From: a bacterium
GTDB taxonomy: Bacteria; CG2-30-53-67
Reading direction: 5' to 3'
DNA length: 36,250 nucleotides
NCBI GenBank assembly: GCA_024277725.1
Contig: JAJRUP010000079.1
Coordinates: 1-36,250, forward strand
Shown: in pieces, positions 7,609-26,417 of the stretch
Position numbering within the stretch: position 1 is the stretch's first letter
Layout: the number at the start of each line of letters is the position of its first letter
The notes under the pieces: generated by a model
Databases searched by the model: none
The model's input: the letters and a program-made list of their open reading frames with translations, nothing else
Told to the model about the DNA's origin: nothing
Program-made: the position numbers and the translations under genes

Positions 7609-7698
7609 GTAGTTCCGTTCTTAGATACTCTGATGCACCCGGAGGGCTTGCCTGTGCGGTTGCATCAGGCAGGCCGTGGTACTTACGAACAGGAGCAT
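7609..7698. repeat. Dispersed inverted-repeat element, copy B (90 bp)
   Basis: The ends are GTAGTTCCGTTCTTAGATAC (15 of 20 to consensus) and the inverse of ATGCTCCTGTTCGTAAGTAC. The asymmetric inner motif CTGATGCACCCGG is on the left, so this copy is in minus orientation. An internal hairpin pairs GGCTTGCCTG with CAGGCAGGCC. Its right end sits directly against the TAA stop of the minus-strand gene at 7699. Confidence 0.8.
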
Positions 7699-8535
7699 TT
7701 AGCGTTTCAGGAACTCTTCAATCACTCCTTTTTCAAAGAGTTCCCGGATCCCTTCGTTGTGCAGGGACGATCGTGTCAGTGGTGCAAGGTTTTCCGGGCC
7801 CTTCGGGAATGGGTGGATCCCCTGTTCATCAAGACGGTGCATGATCTCCATAATCAGGTTGGTCGAGGTTCCCTCGATGGTCCGGATCTTCGACGAGACA
7901 TTCAGGTGGACCACGAAGGTCCCTTCCTGGACGGCGAAAAGATCATAGAGTGCCCTTTTCCCGAAGAGTTTGTCTGAAACGGCATGAATGATCTCGCCTC
8001 TTTCAAAATAGATCCGGCCCTCCCGTTCTTTCCCGGAAATCTCAAGAGTGGCCGTTTTTCTCCCCATGTCAAAGAGTTGTACCAGATCGACCAGGTTGAT
8101 GTCCTTCAGATCCCCTTTTATGCCGTCATCCTCGGTCAACGTGGTTACCTGCCGTTTGTTGTAACGACGCAAGACCACCTTGATCCGGGCGAGAAGCTCC
8201 GTTTCATTAAAGGGCTTGCTGATGTAGTCTTCCGCGCCTGCATCGAGGGCGGAAACCTTGTCCGATAAAAGCGTACGGGAAGAGAGAAAAATAAAAGGGA
8301 TTTCGCTTGTTTCCGGTGCATGATGTACCGTTTTCATGAACTCCCGGCCGTCCATGTCTTGCAGTACGATCTCGGAGAGGATCAGGTCGGGCAGGTTCTT
8401 GATGGCGATCTGCATGGCCAGTGCACAATTCGGTGCAAAGTAGACAATGAATCCGTTCCGGATCAGGACATCTTTCAGAATCCGGAGGGTGCTGTTTTCG
8501 CTGTCGACAATCAGGATTGCCTTGTTCAGGACCAT
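7699..8535 (-). CDS. Pseudo-receiver plus DUF4388 (PATAN-type) regulator
   Basis: The 278-residue protein has an N-terminal receiver domain (about 4-122) and a DUF4388 domain (about 135-240), recognisable from GDLKDINLVDLVQLFDMGRK and GRIYFERGEIIHA. DUF4388 proteins are common in deltaproteobacteria and Myxococcota signalling. The receiver keeps K107 and S85. The phospho-acceptor aspartate is replaced by E55 (LILSEIVLQDMDG), and the acidic pocket reads VDSEN rather than VDDE. Ordinary phosphorylation is therefore unlikely, and Glu may mimic the phosphorylated state. I prefer ATG 8535 because VLNKAILIVDSEN starts the domain; the 8613 start adds a tail unlike a receiver. The next gene on the strand is the GAF/GGDEF-like protein, so the two may work in one pathway. 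Confidence 0.85.
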   Translation of the reverse strand: MVLNKAILIVDSENSTLRILKDVLIRNGFIVYFAPNCALAMQIAIKNLPDLILSEIVLQDMDGREFMKTVHHAPETSEIPFIFLSSRTLLSDKVSALDAGAEDYISKPFNETELLARIKVVLRRYNKRQVTTLTEDDGIKGDLKDINLVDLVQLFDMGRKTATLEISGKEREGRIYFERGEIIHAVSDKLFGKRALYDLFAVQEGTFVVHLNVSSKIRTIEGTSTNLIMEIMHRLDEQGIHPFPKGPENLAPLTRSSLHNEGIRELFEKGVIEEFLKR

Positions 8536-11474: not shown

Positions 11475-11597
11475 GCAGTCCTGTTCGGGAACAGTGTGAC
11501 GTACCGAGAGAGCCTTACGGTGCGTCGCCTCTCTGTGTGCGTTATGCCCGTACGGGCGGACACGTAGACAGACTATCATATTTACGAACAGGGCCAC
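11475..11597. repeat. Dispersed inverted-repeat element, copy C (123 bp)
   Basis: The right end, read in reverse, GTGGCCCTGTTCGTAAATAT, matches the consensus at 18 of 20. The left end GCAGTCCTGTTCGGGAACAG matches at 14 of 20 and has become a self-complementary CTGTTC-GG-GAACAG hairpin. Inside are CGGTGCGTCGC, an inverted version CGGTACGTCACAC, and the perfect palindrome GCCCGTACGGGC. Immediately after the right end comes TAAGGAGC, which includes the ribosome binding site of tldD. Confidence 0.8.
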
Positions 11598-11615
11598 TAA
11601 GGAGCAGGGGGAGAG

Positions 11616-13930: not shown

Positions 13931-15316
13931 ATGGAAATTGTTTCCAATATCCTCGTTGTCGATGACAACCGGAACAATCTGGAACTACTCTCCGATATCC
14001 TGAAGATGGAAGGATATTATGTCCGGACGGCCCGGAACGGGGAGACGGCGTTAAAAGAGGTCTATCAGAGGATGCCGGACCTGATTCTTCTGGATATCAT
14101 GATGCCGGGGATCGACGGTTACCGTGTCTGTGAAACCCTCAAAAAAAAGCCGGAGACCCGAAACATCCCGATTATCCTGGTGAGCGCCAAGAGTTCCATC
14201 GAGGACACGATCGAGGGGTTAAACCACGGCGCCGATGACTATATCCACAAACCTTATAACGAGATGGAACTGCTGGCCCGGGTCAAGTCGGCGCTGCAGA
14301 TGAAGCACCTCCACGATGAAGTACGCCATACCAACCGGATGCTCTCCAATCAGAAGGAACAGATCGAGACGATCATCAATACCATGGGGGAAGGTCTCTT
14401 TTCCGTGAACCAGGAGATGGAGATTGTTTTCTTCAATGCCGCCGCCGAGGAGATCACCGGTTACAGTTTCCGGGAGGCGATCGGTCGGAGATGCACAGAA
14501 ATTTTCAACTGTCCCGATGATGCCGACTGCTGTAATGTTGCGGCTGCGGAGTCTTTCGGGCGGGACCGGAAGATCGTGAAAGAGTTCAATCTGGTTCGCA
14601 AGGACGGGAGTACCGTTCCCATTGTCAAAAGCACGCGGTTCATCTTCTCCGCCGAGGGAGAGGTGATCGGTCGGGTCGAGGTCTTCCGGGACATCGGCAA
14701 GGACAAGGAACTGGAGCAGAAGAAAGCGGACTTTGTCTCCATGGTAATCCATGATCTGAAAAATCCCCTGACGACGATCACCATCTGCGACAAGATCGTC
14801 CTGAACGAAACCCGGGGGGTTATCGATGAAGATCTGACGAAACTGTTACAGAATATTGAAACCAGTGCCAATCACCTCCTGAATCTGGTCAATGAATTGC
14901 TCGATCTTTCCAAGCTTGATTCGGGGACGGTGGAATACAACAAGCAGCGCATCGACATGAATGACGTGATGGAAATCTCCATCAACACCCAGCGGATGAT
15001 TTCCCGGAACAAGGAGATCGAGATCGAAAAGGACTTTGGCGCCGACCGGTTTCCGATTGTCGGTGACAAGGACTATCTCATGCGGGTCATGATCAATCTC
15101 ATCGGAAATGCCATCAAGTTCACACCGGAAGGCGGGAAGATCCGCGTGATCGCGAATATTCTTTCGGAACGTACCCCCGGGGATCCCTCCTCCCCTGAAC
15201 TGGATGCGGCGGAGAGGATCCTGCAGATTTCCATTGTCGACAACGGCCGCGGGATTTCCGAAGGTGATTTGCCGACGATTTTTGAAAAATACAGAAGGGT
15301 TCGGGGAACAACGTAG
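13931..15316 (+). CDS. Receiver-PAS-histidine kinase hybrid, interrupted by in-frame TAG
   Basis: The encoded 461 residues comprise an N-terminal receiver domain (phospho-acceptor D55 in LILLDIMMPGIDG, K in YIHKPY) and a linker coiled coil. A PAS domain follows at about 150-260, with clustered cysteines CTEIFNCPDDADCC that could bind a metal or cluster. The HisKA domain has H274 in VIHDLKNPLTTI, and the first half of HATPase_c has N box LIGNAIKFTPE and G1 DNGRGISEGD. Translation stops at TAG (15314-15316) just after KYRRVRGTT. The missing G2 box and C-terminus follow in the same frame to 15448. Without readthrough the kinase would lack GxGLGL and probably not bind ATP properly. It follows another histidine kinase gene in the likely tldD operon. 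Confidence 0.88.
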   Translation: MEIVSNILVVDDNRNNLELLSDILKMEGYYVRTARNGETALKEVYQRMPDLILLDIMMPGIDGYRVCETLKKKPETRNIPIILVSAKSSIEDTIEGLNHGADDYIHKPYNEMELLARVKSALQMKHLHDEVRHTNRMLSNQKEQIETIINTMGEGLFSVNQEMEIVFFNAAAEEITGYSFREAIGRRCTEIFNCPDDADCCNVAAAESFGRDRKIVKEFNLVRKDGSTVPIVKSTRFIFSAEGEVIGRVEVFRDIGKDKELEQKKADFVSMVIHDLKNPLTTITICDKIVLNETRGVIDEDLTKLLQNIETSANHLLNLVNELLDLSKLDSGTVEYNKQRIDMNDVMEISINTQRMISRNKEIEIEKDFGADRFPIVGDKDYLMRVMINLIGNAIKFTPEGGKIRVIANILSERTPGDPSSPELDAAERILQISIVDNGRGISEGDLPTIFEKYRRVRGTT

Positions 15317-15448
15317 ATCGAAGGGTCCGGTCTGGGGCTCTTTATTGCCAAAGTGATTATCGAGGCCCACGGTGGGCGGATCTGGGTTGACGGCAGTTCC
15401 GGGGAGGGGAGTACTTTCAAGATCCTCCTCCCGGCACTGCTGGAATAA
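15317..15448 (+). CDS. In-frame C-terminal remainder of the hybrid histidine kinase after TAG
   Basis: Directly after the TAG and in the same frame, 43 codons encode the end of the HATPase domain: [12 protein letters not shown] (G2 box), HGGRIWVDG and [12 protein letters not shown], closing with TAA. This is exactly the portion missing from the upstream ORF, with no base lost or gained. It has no start codon or ribosome binding site of its own, so it is expressed only if the amber codon is read through or suppressed; otherwise the gene is a recent pseudogene or the base is a sequencing error. Confidence 0.85.
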
Positions 15449-15786
15449 CGATTAGCCAGGGGCAAAGGGGCAGAGGACGCAAAGAAAAACAAAACATGAA
15501 AAAACAAGATCTAACAAAAACATGTAACCACGGAGCACACGGAGAACACAGAGCAAAAACAAGGCAAAAAGCATCAATCATTTTATTCCCTCTCCCCTCG
15601 GGGAGAGGGTAAGGGTGAGGGGGCGCTGTCCCTTGCTCTTCATCTTGATCATAATTTTAATCCATTCTTTCAAGATCATCTGATTAAGATTAAGAGTAAG
15701 GTTACGATTAAGAATGAACAGTATGTAAGGTGGCTTGTCTGAGCGGAACGATTTGAAGGGAATCAAGAAAAAGAGCGGGAGCTTAA
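15449..15786. repeat. Intergenic repeat cluster before purM
   Basis: The 338 bases hold no gene. From 15452 there are A-rich direct-repeat fragments of the widespread 'cggagcacacggagaacac' type, ending in GGCAAAAAGCATC. The same family recurs at 20416-20540 and, inverted, near 28660. At 15588-15609 CCCTCTCCCC-TC-GGGGAGAGGG is a perfect 10-bp inverted repeat, a common REP-like sequence, followed by AAGGGTGAGGG. Around 15680-15715 are repeated GATTAAG units. No clear promoter for purM was found. Confidence 0.7.
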
Positions 15787-19192: not shown

Positions 19193-20415
19193 ACCTTTCC
19201 GTCAAGGGACCGGGACTCCTTCTCTGGATCGTTATCGGGGCCGTTTTGGCTGTTGGTTTCGGCTCTTTCTTCCCCGAAGCGGCTCTTCGTACAGAACTTT
19301 TGGGTGTGCTGTTCCTGAACGCCCTGAAAATGATGGTCCTTCCCCTTATCATTACCTCGATCATCGTCGGCGTGATGAGTCTGGGGGATGTGCGCCGGCT
19401 CGGGGCGTTGGGCGTCAAGACCTTTCTTTACTATATGGTGACGACGGGACTATCCGTTGCGGTCGGGATCGGGCTGGTCCTGATCCTGCAACCGGGTGTG
19501 GGATTTTCGGCCTTCGGCGGACCGCTCCCCGAGGCGGTCCGGGCAGAGGGCGTCTACTCCATCGTCGATGTCCTGACCGGCCTGATTCATCCGAATCTGG
19601 TGCAGGCGGCGGTGGAGTTGAAAATCCTGCCGATCATTTTTGCCTCGATTCTTTTCGGGACGGCTTTTACAATGTTGGGAGAGCAAAAGTCGATCGTGGA
19701 GCAGTTCTTTTCCGCCTGCAACGAGGCGGTGATGAAGATCGTTCATGGTATCATGTATTTTGCACCCCTGGGGATCTTCGGGTTGATCGCTTCCCGACTC
19801 GGGTCGACGGGGGGCGGCGGGGCCGTCTGGGATCTCGTGGTACAACTCGGAAAATATGCCGGTACTGTTGTGACCGGACTTACGATTCATGGACTACTGG
19901 TTCTGCCGCTGATCCTCTACCTTTTCTCCGGGAAAAATCCCGGCCGCTATTTTCTTCATCTCGCCAAGGCTCTGCTCACGGCTTTTGCTACGGCCTCATC
20001 TTCGTCGACCCTGCCCCTGACGTTGGAATGCGTCACGGAAGAGGCGCGGGTGTCGAACCGGACCGCAGGTTTCGTCCTTCCCCTGGGGGCAACGATCAAC
20101 ATGGACGGCACGGCCCTCTACGAGGCGGTGGCGGCGATTTTTATCGCCCAGAGTTACGGGATCTCTCTCGGTGGCGGTGAACTGGTGGTGATCTTCCTCA
20201 CGGCCACCCTGGCGGCCATCGGGGCGGCGGGGATTCCCGAGGCGGGTCTGGTGACGATGGTTCTGGTGTTGCAGTCTGTGGGACTTCCCGTAGAGGGCAT
20301 CGGAATGATCCTCGCCGTCGACTGGCTGCTGGACCGCTGCCGGACGACGGTCAACGTCTGGGGGGACGCCGTCGGTGCGGCGGTGGTGGATCATCTGGAG
20401 GGAACTGAGGGATAG
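19189..20415 (+). CDS. Dicarboxylate/amino acid:cation symporter (DAACS family)
   Basis: The 408-residue inner-membrane protein belongs to the glutamate/dicarboxylate-cation symporters (GltP, DctA). Family motifs are the serine-rich hairpin ASSSSTLPLTLE, GATINMDGTALYEA in TM7 with the NMDGT cation/substrate site, TATLAAIGAAGIPEAG in HP2, and DRCRTTVNVWGDA in TM8, whose arginine suggests an acidic amino acid or dicarboxylate substrate. I chose ATG 19189, which overlaps the PhzF stop, rather than the 47-codon-longer ORF start, whose extra residues are not a membrane segment. The TAG stop is followed by TAA seven codons later. Confidence 0.94.
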   Translation: MNLSVKGPGLLLWIVIGAVLAVGFGSFFPEAALRTELLGVLFLNALKMMVLPLIITSIIVGVMSLGDVRRLGALGVKTFLYYMVTTGLSVAVGIGLVLILQPGVGFSAFGGPLPEAVRAEGVYSIVDVLTGLIHPNLVQAAVELKILPIIFASILFGTAFTMLGEQKSIVEQFFSACNEAVMKIVHGIMYFAPLGIFGLIASRLGSTGGGGAVWDLVVQLGKYAGTVVTGLTIHGLLVLPLILYLFSGKNPGRYFLHLAKALLTAFATASSSSTLPLTLECVTEEARVSNRTAGFVLPLGATINMDGTALYEAVAAIFIAQSYGISLGGGELVVIFLTATLAAIGAAGIPEAGLVTMVLVLQSVGLPVEGIGMILAVDWLLDRCRTTVNVWGDAVGAAVVDHLEGTEG

Positions 20416-20540
20416 AGGCACAAAGGCACAAAGTAAAATCAAAGGCAAAAAGCATACACCCCATAAGCATTCACCGCAGGCGCAGAGTACACAGAGAAAA
20501 CAATAACAAGTCAAAAGCGAAAAGCATTTATCATGAAGGA
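20416..20540. repeat. Intergenic A-rich repeat, second copy
   Basis: The stretch after the symporter stop contains GAGGCACAAAGGCACAAAG, GGCAAAAAGCAT and AAGCATTCACCGCAGGCG, then AGAGTACACAGAG. It resembles 15452-15580 and, inverted, 28663-28700 (ctctgtggtgaatgctt). These are degenerate copies of a non-coding repeat common in deltaproteobacteria-like genomes. No coding potential was seen. Confidence 0.6.
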
Positions 20541-20828: not shown

Positions 20829-21386
20829 ATGTTTGCCTCCCTCCTTTCGGAACTTGCACGGGTGTTGGACCGGTCCGGAATTCCTTACATGGTTATTGGC
20901 GGCCAGGCGGTTCTTCTTCATGGAAGACCCCGTTTGACGCAGGATATCGATCTGACCTTGGGGGTTGACGCTTCTGCTCTGAAAGAGGTGTGCCGCGTCT
21001 GCAGGGAAGTCCCGCTGCAACTTCTGCCGGAAGACCCGGAGGAATTTGTCCGGGAGACGAATGTACTCCCTGTTCTAAGTCCCGATCTGAAAATTCGGGT
21101 CGACCTGATCTTTTCCTTCACCCCTTATGAGAAAGAAGCAATCGGTCGGAGTATTTCCGTTTCCCTGGAGGGTTATCCCGTACGGTTTGCCACGGCGGAA
21201 GATCTGATCCTGCATAAACTCTTTGCCGGGAGAGTACGGGACTTGGAGGATGTGGAAAGTGTTGTGGCACGGAAAAGAGATGAACTTGACAGCGTTTACT
21301 TGAACCACTGGGCGGAAGAATTTTCCCGCCTTCCCGGCAAAGAGTCGATCCTGCCGACCCTTCAAAGGCTTCTCCGCTCCAACTAA
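20829..21386 (+). CDS. Nucleotidyltransferase of the AbiEii/MNT type
   Basis: The 185-residue protein has the nucleotidyltransferase core IGGQAVLLHGRPRLTQDIDL: a GG motif, then a DxD pair in the T-x-DiDl form, with a later Asp in IRVDLIFSF that would complete the metal site. The segment ATAEDLILHKLFAGRVRD is typical of AbiEii/AbiGii-like and DUF6036-like proteins. Such enzymes act as toxins in type IV or MNT/HEPN-type systems, or as tRNA- or protein-modifying nucleotidyltransferases. Directly adjoining a 71-residue gene with a shared promoter supports a two-gene module, but the toxin role is inference. The stop codon abuts repeat copy D. Confidence 0.8.
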   Translation: MFASLLSELARVLDRSGIPYMVIGGQAVLLHGRPRLTQDIDLTLGVDASALKEVCRVCREVPLQLLPEDPEEFVRETNVLPVLSPDLKIRVDLIFSFTPYEKEAIGRSISVSLEGYPVRFATAEDLILHKLFAGRVRDLEDVESVVARKRDELDSVYLNHWAEEFSRLPGKESILPTLQRLLRSN

Positions 21387-21449
21387 GTGGTCCTGTTCGT
21401 AAATACTTCAACCCTTTCGGTGCGTCGCAGTCTTTACGAGCAGGACCAC
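21387..21449. repeat. Dispersed inverted-repeat element, copy D (63 bp, shortest)
   Basis: The left end is the consensus GTGGTCCTGTTCGTAAATAC. The right end is its inverse at 18 of 20. Only CGGTGCGTCGCAG and a few bases lie between, so this looks like a minimal form lacking the internal hairpin. It fills the whole gap between two convergent genes: the TAA on the left is adjacent and the minus-strand TGA is six bases to the right. The long stem could also act as a bidirectional transcription barrier. Confidence 0.88.
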
Positions 21450-21454
21450 TGATT

Positions 21455-21985
21455 TCACGTCTCCGCGGGGACCTTCAGGATTTGTCCCGTTTTTAAATAG
21501 TTTGATGAGAGGCCGTTAATCCTTTTGATGATGTAGACGGAGGTCTTATGCCTCCGTGCAATCGACCAGAGGGTATCGCCGTGCTTCACGCGGTACTTCC
21601 GGAAGTCCCCGGAGAAGGTTTGGGCGACGGTGCTGAAATTGGTCTGGGGATGGCGGAGGGGGACCTTGATCCGCTGACCGATCCGGATGCGGGAGACGTT
21701 CCGGATCCGGTTGAGACGGGAGATGGTCCGGACCGATGTGTGGTAACGCCTTGCGATCTGGGAGAGGGTTTCCCCCCGACGGACACGGTGGATCGTGTAG
21801 GTACGGATGGTCAGTTTGCACTGGGGGATCCGGTCCAGTATTGCCGTCAGGACTTCTCCTCTCCCCGGTGGAACACGAAGGATGTAGGAGTAGCTCGGTG
21901 TGACCTTTTGCCGCAGGGCGGGATTCAATTCACTGAGTTGCGAGGTCTTGACCGACAGGCCTTTTGCTACATCGGAGAGCTTCAT
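21455..21985 (-). CDS. LysM-domain part of split MltD
   Basis: The 176-residue ORF contains a MltD-type linker (LSELNPALRQKVTP, ILRVPPG) and two LysM peptidoglycan-binding domains, YTIHRVRRGETLSQIARRYH and YRVKHGDTLWSIARRHKTS, each closing with an IKVP/LKVP strand. It has no signal peptide, so it could not be exported alone. Its first ATG directly follows a TAG that ends the lytic transglycosylase ORF in the same frame. Together the two ORFs give the normal single-chain MltD order, lipoprotein-transglycosylase-LysM, of about 515 residues. It is either the 3' half of a gene with an amber codon that is read through, or a recently split gene. Confidence 0.85.
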   Translation of the reverse strand: MKLSDVAKGLSVKTSQLSELNPALRQKVTPSYSYILRVPPGRGEVLTAILDRIPQCKLTIRTYTIHRVRRGETLSQIARRYHTSVRTISRLNRIRNVSRIRIGQRIKVPLRHPQTNFSTVAQTFSGDFRKYRVKHGDTLWSIARRHKTSVYIIKRINGLSSNYLKTGQILKVPAET

Positions 21986-23002
21986 CTATTTTGCGATACG
22001 GACCTCCTCAAAGGCCAGCGGATCATCCTCTTTCAATTCGGGGAAACCGTATTTGACGGGATCCTTGACGATCTGCAGGGTGGCCAGGAAACGGGGGACA
22101 TAACGTGATGTTTCCGGAGGAAGCATGGGATAGAGATCCCAGAAGTTGTCGAGGTAGTTGACTCGTTGTTCCCGGATTGCCCGGAGGACATTGCCTTCGC
22201 CGCAGTTGTAAGCGGCCAGGGCCGTCGTCCAGTCGCCGAAGAGATCGTGCAGGGCCGTGAGATATTCGATCGCGGCCCGGGTGGAGGCCTTGAAATCCAT
22301 CCGTTCGTCCACCCACTGATCCCGCTTGAGATTGAAACGGGTCCCCGTGGAGGCGATGAACTGCCAGAGTCCCAAAGCCCTCGCACGGGAGAAGGCCTTG
22401 TCCTTGTATCCGCTTTCGATCAGGGGCAGCCAGACCAATTCCTTGGGAAGGCCTGCTTTTTGAAGTTCCCCCTCGATATAGCTGCGGTATTTTCCGGAAC
22501 GCCGGTAGGATTCGAGGAAATAATTCCGCTCCTTCCCCTGGAAGCGTCTGATTTCCGCTTCAACATAATTATTCATCACCAGGGGGATGGCGCCGTCTCC
22601 GTTGACGAGGGTCGCCCCGGAGCGGGAGGCGTAGATCTCGAGGATCCGCTTGGAGATCAGAAGCCGAAGGTCCTCTTTCTGCTGAATGATGTCAGGGTCG
22701 TGATCGGCCGGGATGTCGAGGATCAGGTCATAACTCTGGTCGAGGAGGAAGATCGCCTCGTCGAGGAGCCCCCGGTCCCAGTATTCCTGGGATTCCTCGT
22801 AGGCCTCCAGTGCATTGTCGATCCGCTGCTGATCCGTCAATTCCGGTGGCGGGACGGGTACCGCTATTGTTTCGACAACCGGGGGATCGGATGTAACGGA
22901 ATCCGTTACGGGAGTTGCAGGCAGGTGCGAGCAGGCGGAAAGTCCGGAAAAAACCAGGAAGACAAAAGAACTGCGCAGAAAGCGCATGAACCGTGGTTTC
23001 AT
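21986..23002 (-). CDS. mltD: Membrane-bound lytic murein transglycosylase D, catalytic part, ends at in-frame TAG
   Basis: The 338-residue lipoprotein begins with a signal sequence and lipobox LSAC (lipidated C24). An N-terminal helical domain precedes an SLT transglycosylase domain with the catalytic glutamate E196 in LPLIESGYKDKA, then ARALGLWQFI and LAAYNCGEGNVLRAI. The enzyme cuts peptidoglycan glycan strands to 1,6-anhydro products at the outer membrane. ATG 23002 is preferred over the 23047 ORF start because AAGGGG precedes it and the longer start lies inside repeat copy E. The chain stops at TAG (21986-21988) right after PLAFEEVRIAK, a position where MltD homologues continue into LysM domains. 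Those follow in frame. Confidence 0.9.
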   Translation of the reverse strand: MKPRFMRFLRSSFVFLVFSGLSACSHLPATPVTDSVTSDPPVVETIAVPVPPPELTDQQRIDNALEAYEESQEYWDRGLLDEAIFLLDQSYDLILDIPADHDPDIIQQKEDLRLLISKRILEIYASRSGATLVNGDGAIPLVMNNYVEAEIRRFQGKERNYFLESYRRSGKYRSYIEGELQKAGLPKELVWLPLIESGYKDKAFSRARALGLWQFIASTGTRFNLKRDQWVDERMDFKASTRAAIEYLTALHDLFGDWTTALAAYNCGEGNVLRAIREQRVNYLDNFWDLYPMLPPETSRYVPRFLATLQIVKDPVKYGFPELKEDDPLAFEEVRIAK

Positions 23003-23015
23003 AAATTTCCCCTTG

Positions 23016-23107
23016 GCGGCCCTCTTCGTAAATACTTTGTGATGCATCGGGAATGCCTGCCTGTGTGTCGCACACAGACCGGCGACCCTATATGCTGACA
23101 GGGACGC
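23016..23107. repeat. Dispersed inverted-repeat element, copy E (92 bp)
   Basis: The left end GCGGCCCTCTTCGTAAATAC matches the consensus at 17 of 20. The right end is worn, at about 12 of 20 in reverse. The inner motif TTTGTGATGCATCGGG is on the left (minus orientation). An internal hairpin CTGTGTG-TCG-CACACAG is perfect. It lies 14 bases upstream of the mltD start on the minus strand. Confidence 0.75.
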
Positions 23108-26328: not shown

Positions 26329-26417
26329 TGGGGCGCATTTGTAAATACGGTGGCCTGTCTGCATGGACGCAGAGCCGGGTTCTTCCGGTGCGTTAGAGTA
26401 TTTTCGAACAGGACCAC
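26329..26417. repeat. Dispersed inverted-repeat element, copy F (89 bp)
   Basis: The right end, read in reverse, is GTGGTCCTGTTCGAAAATAC (19 of 20). The left end is worn (13 of 20) but keeps GTAAATACGGTGGC, shared with copy A. The inner motif CCGGTGCGTTAGAG is on the right (plus orientation). Hairpins TCTGC-N6-GCAGA and CCGG-N6-CCGG lie inside. The right end is followed by GAAGGAGC, a ribosome-binding sequence, as with copy C. Confidence 0.85.

Follow-up and report, generated by a model that had tools for sequence, protein, structure and literature searches.

The window, a stretch of 36,250 nucleotides from a draft genome of 2.9 Mb in 252 contigs, carries on its minus strand two adjoining open reading frames that together resemble a single mltD gene (Table 1). 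The first ORF (21986-23047) encodes the SLT domain and closes with the TAG at 21988-21986. The second opens at the ATG at 21985, the codon adjoining the TAG in the same frame, encodes the LysM part and runs to 21455. The frame around the stop reads ...EEVRIAK-TAG-ATG AAG CTC..., exactly as an earlier note on this DNA had described it. Counted from the lipoprotein ATG at 23002, 338 codons are open before the TAG and 176 after it. An ...LSAC lipobox can be read in the N-terminal sequence, ahead of the SLT domain, and no export signal was found where the LysM ORF begins, so that the statement of the earlier note on the lack of an export signal in the LysM part also holds. Both parts match the NCBIfam MltD model, NF008050, each over a different stretch of that one model. 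Similar to E. coli MltD, the locus thus has, in one frame, a lipoprotein signal followed by an SLT domain, with LysM repeats at the C-terminal end; the difference lies in the in-frame TAG between the parts, seen in this assembly only. The score of 143 bits stays below the E. coli-type equivalog cut-off of 508, which is what a distant phylum would lead one to expect.

Table 1 Coordinates of the mltD locus and of other in-frame stops in this genome. Positions without a contig label are those of the window; the others are given as contig:position.
Feature	Position	Strand	Evidence
N-terminal part of the MltD-type lytic transglycosylase, with SLT domain and lipoprotein signal (MKPRFMRFLRSSFVFLVFSGLSAC)	21989..23002	-	PF01464, E 4e-23; NF008050, E 6e-42; lipobox and signal identified by reading the sequence
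In-frame TAG where the same-genus relative has GAG and the rest of the family CAG	21986..21988	-	Codon compared in 109 relatives
C-terminal LysM part of mltD with its TGA terminator	21455..21985	-	PF01476, E 2.5e-33; no signal peptide of its own
Histidine kinase with the same type of lesion (TAG 15314-15316)	13931..15445	+	GAG in the same-genus orthologue; frame runs on to about 15445
Further in-frame TAA/TAG stops	C198:12598, C108:8918, C48:3444, C50:65109, C73:14153, C232:3946, C219:11062		Mostly Glu codons in the sister genome

Two kinds of repeats were also observed in the window. A dispersed repeat around GTGGTCCTGTTCGTAAATA occurs in both orientations at 7679-7702, 11579-11610, 21374-21412 and 26392-26417, apparently between genes or at gene ends, and its copies resemble a small interspersed element. 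Intergenic stretches of the 'CACAGAGAACACAGAG' type, which are often seen in environmental genomes, lie at 15520-15560 and 20415-20520, and one of their frames reads TTEHTENTE.

The read-through product of 515 residues aligns end to end with one uninterrupted ORF in a relative of the same genus (G001, 79% identity) and with single ORFs in four further genomes of this family (G002-G005, 58-67%), which argues that the two ORFs are not adjacent by chance. The named family relatives are metagenome-assembled genomes of the 'Nitrospirae CG2-30-53-67' type. In every family relative the LysM repeats share the open frame with the SLT domain, whereas here they lie behind the TAG. The earlier view of one mltD broken by an in-frame stop is therefore upheld, and the comparison with relatives that was proposed to examine it is clear: among 109 related MltD-type genes whose alignment spans this site, not one carries a stop. 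The codon at this position is GAG (Glu) in G001 and CAG (Gln) in all of G002-G005, and more distant relatives mostly have Gln, Pro or Arg. A genuine two-gene arrangement, one of the findings that would have overturned this view, did not appear in any family relative, as single ORFs were found throughout. The LysM half shows no decay or relaxation when judged on family-invariant residues against the relatives: one of 62 such residues is changed here, compared with zero to nine in the other genomes (4 of 65 in G001). With no stop in the relatives and an unrelaxed LysM half, the stop is either very young or absent from the organism.

The position of the ATG directly after the TAG had suggested that ribosomes might terminate and reinitiate there, in which case mltD would be two separately translated genes. 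A GAGGAGG does lie upstream of this ATG on the coding strand. However, it encodes the EE of a motif common to the sister genome, and its spacing of about 16 bases from the ATG is long. The Met itself is common to relatives as part of Q/E-M-K-L or a similar motif, and the ATG is therefore an inherited internal codon rather than an evolved start. As the LysM product would also be made without a signal peptide, and as two separate genes are seen in none of the family relatives, we consider reinitiation the least probable of all the readings discussed here.

The mltD stop is not isolated. This genome has about ten other in-frame TAA or TAG stops within conserved genes, with no TGA seen among its internal in-frame stops. 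One of them is in the window, where the ORF of a response-regulator/PAS histidine kinase (13931-15316) ends in a TAG at a codon which begins with G in each of the five family relatives. Surveys of gene families across this genome identified stops within conserved domains of an ABC ATPase (TAA), a response regulator (TAG) and four HATPase proteins (three TAA, one TAG); the HATPase TAG is the window kinase stop at 15314. In the five relatives, no such stop was seen among the best 150 response-regulator matches. The stops were sampled through these gene families and through the contigs with homology to a single contig (123 kb) in the sister genome; positions 521 to 24199 of the window are collinear with contig 55 of that genome. 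Six internal stops, including those of mltD and the kinase, were counted in 60 genes (23,805 codons) of this genome, compared with none over the same genes in G001 (57 genes, 23,396 codons). In both genomes, in-frame stops near ORF starts were left out as upstream sequence (in this genome all but one were TGA), and stops in antisense shadow frames were left out as non-coding.

Readthrough had been put forward as the working explanation of the interruption. A suppressor or recoded tRNA that reads TAG, or both TAA and TAG, as Glu or Gln would yield one normal MltD chain, and this would fit with the frame being kept on either side of the TAG and with the interrupted positions being mostly Glu in the sister genome. 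However, release factor RF1 is present (552 bits) and TAG terminates 5 of 25 genes in the window (TAA another 6 of 25), which argues against a reassignment of TAG to sense. Two contig ends, C7:1-153 and C124:1-60, both carry the 3' end of prfA, the gene for RF1, which indicates that these contigs overlap and were left unjoined. The search for an amber suppressor or pyl genes suggested by the earlier note gave no support to its proposal: none of the 37 tRNA matches in the genome has a CUA anticodon according to ARAGORN, in a set that is incomplete, as shown by the missing Asn and Asp tRNAs, and that also has no Glu(UUC) tRNA, which leaves some room for a suppressor tRNA. The best PylS match scores 22.8 bits, far short of the cut-off (178), and PylS is thus scored as absent; 13 of 14 control genomes likewise give a match, only one of them above the cut-off. 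The resemblance to pyrrolysine or amber-suppressor decoding is therefore limited to the in-frame TAG. A local readthrough signal was rejected as well, as no stem-loop follows the TAG (z 0.5) and no Rfam family matches anywhere in the window. In addition, the stops are scattered over genes that are unrelated to one another, and the sister genome lacks them. Decoding of the TAG as Glu or Gln is thus highly unlikely. A variant in which the lineage tolerates many TAA and TAG codons for Glu through partial, tRNA-based readthrough of both, while still using both as terminators, seems more improbable still.

The nature of the base changes points to another cause. Relative to G001, the stops arise from GAG>TAG in mltD and the kinase, from GAA>TAA in C198, C48, C50, C73 and at C232:3946, and from TCG>TAG in C108. 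All eight are G:C>T:A, a class expected to make up 35% of changes according to the family-polarised spectrum (p 2e-4; p 7e-4 when mltD is omitted, as the ancestral codon there could have been CAG, with a C>T change, rather than GAG, with G>T). This test took only the stops that are one base away from the G001 codon; four two-base stops (C141:3774, C232:2715, C219:11062 and C219:9429) were left out as ambiguous. Missense changes of the G>T/C>A type were considered as a second sign of error and gave a weak and mixed picture. Over all codons, G:C>T:A changes are slightly in excess in this genome (1486 vs 1349 in G001, p 0.01), but at codons with conserved flanks there is no excess (104 vs 107), where unselected errors at the rate derived from the nonsense changes would by our estimate add ~18. 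The stops thus support an unselected G:C>T:A load; the missense changes do so only weakly.

A mutator deficient in MutY is not indicated as the source of this load, since mutY is intact (338.8 bits, 79% identity to the sister's over 363 residues). For oxidative G>T artefacts, strand asymmetry in the reads is the diagnostic sign. The likeness to sequencing artefacts caused by 8-oxoguanine lies in the G:C>T:A change of all eight single-step stops, whereas here the change is seen in an assembled consensus. G>T changes are a known consequence of guanine oxidation, whether inside the cell or in vitro, and ex vivo oxidation produces G>T mismatches (PMC12390751). Our search of the literature on short-read errors in metagenome assemblies found nothing specific.

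Taken as one of about a dozen stops, most of them with the same single-base change, the TAG points neither to a split gene nor to special stop decoding. Very probably, mltD is an ordinary single gene here in which one changed base has produced a nonsense codon, due either to a base-level or damage error in the draft or to a very recent nonsense mutation. The stop would then be one of the unselected, mostly G:C>T:A stops scattered genome-wide in the draft assembly, and would most likely have originated as a consensus error or DNA-damage artefact, or otherwise as a nonsense mutation that arose very recently in the lineage sampled. Between these two origins we lean, somewhat beyond an even chance, towards an error at the base, one of the outcomes that the earlier note had named as refuting its reading, since many stops of this kind occur in the genome and share a substitution signature. 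A real and fixed recent nonsense mutation, leaving a young pseudogene or a truncated but active MltD made as a LysM-less lipoprotein, is possible but clearly less probable. It agrees with a TAG that is one base from GAG or CAG and with an intact downstream LysM part, as in a young lesion. The genome also has four further SLT-domain loci elsewhere, and another lytic transglycosylase may cover the MltD role. However, similar stops in several unrelated conserved genes, and none in the sister over the same genes, point to a genome-wide cause.

These results remove a candidate recoding event. For single in-frame stops in draft genomes, the genome-wide stop load and the substitution type should be checked before a mechanism is proposed, and other 'split genes' from this assembly deserve equal caution. 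If the stop were real, the lipoprotein transglycosylase made by the organism would be devoid of the LysM domains that bind peptidoglycan, and the LysM stretch would either not be translated or yield a product confined to the cytoplasm. In E. coli, a suppression test showed severely reduced activity for a MltD without LysM domains (PMC10931528).
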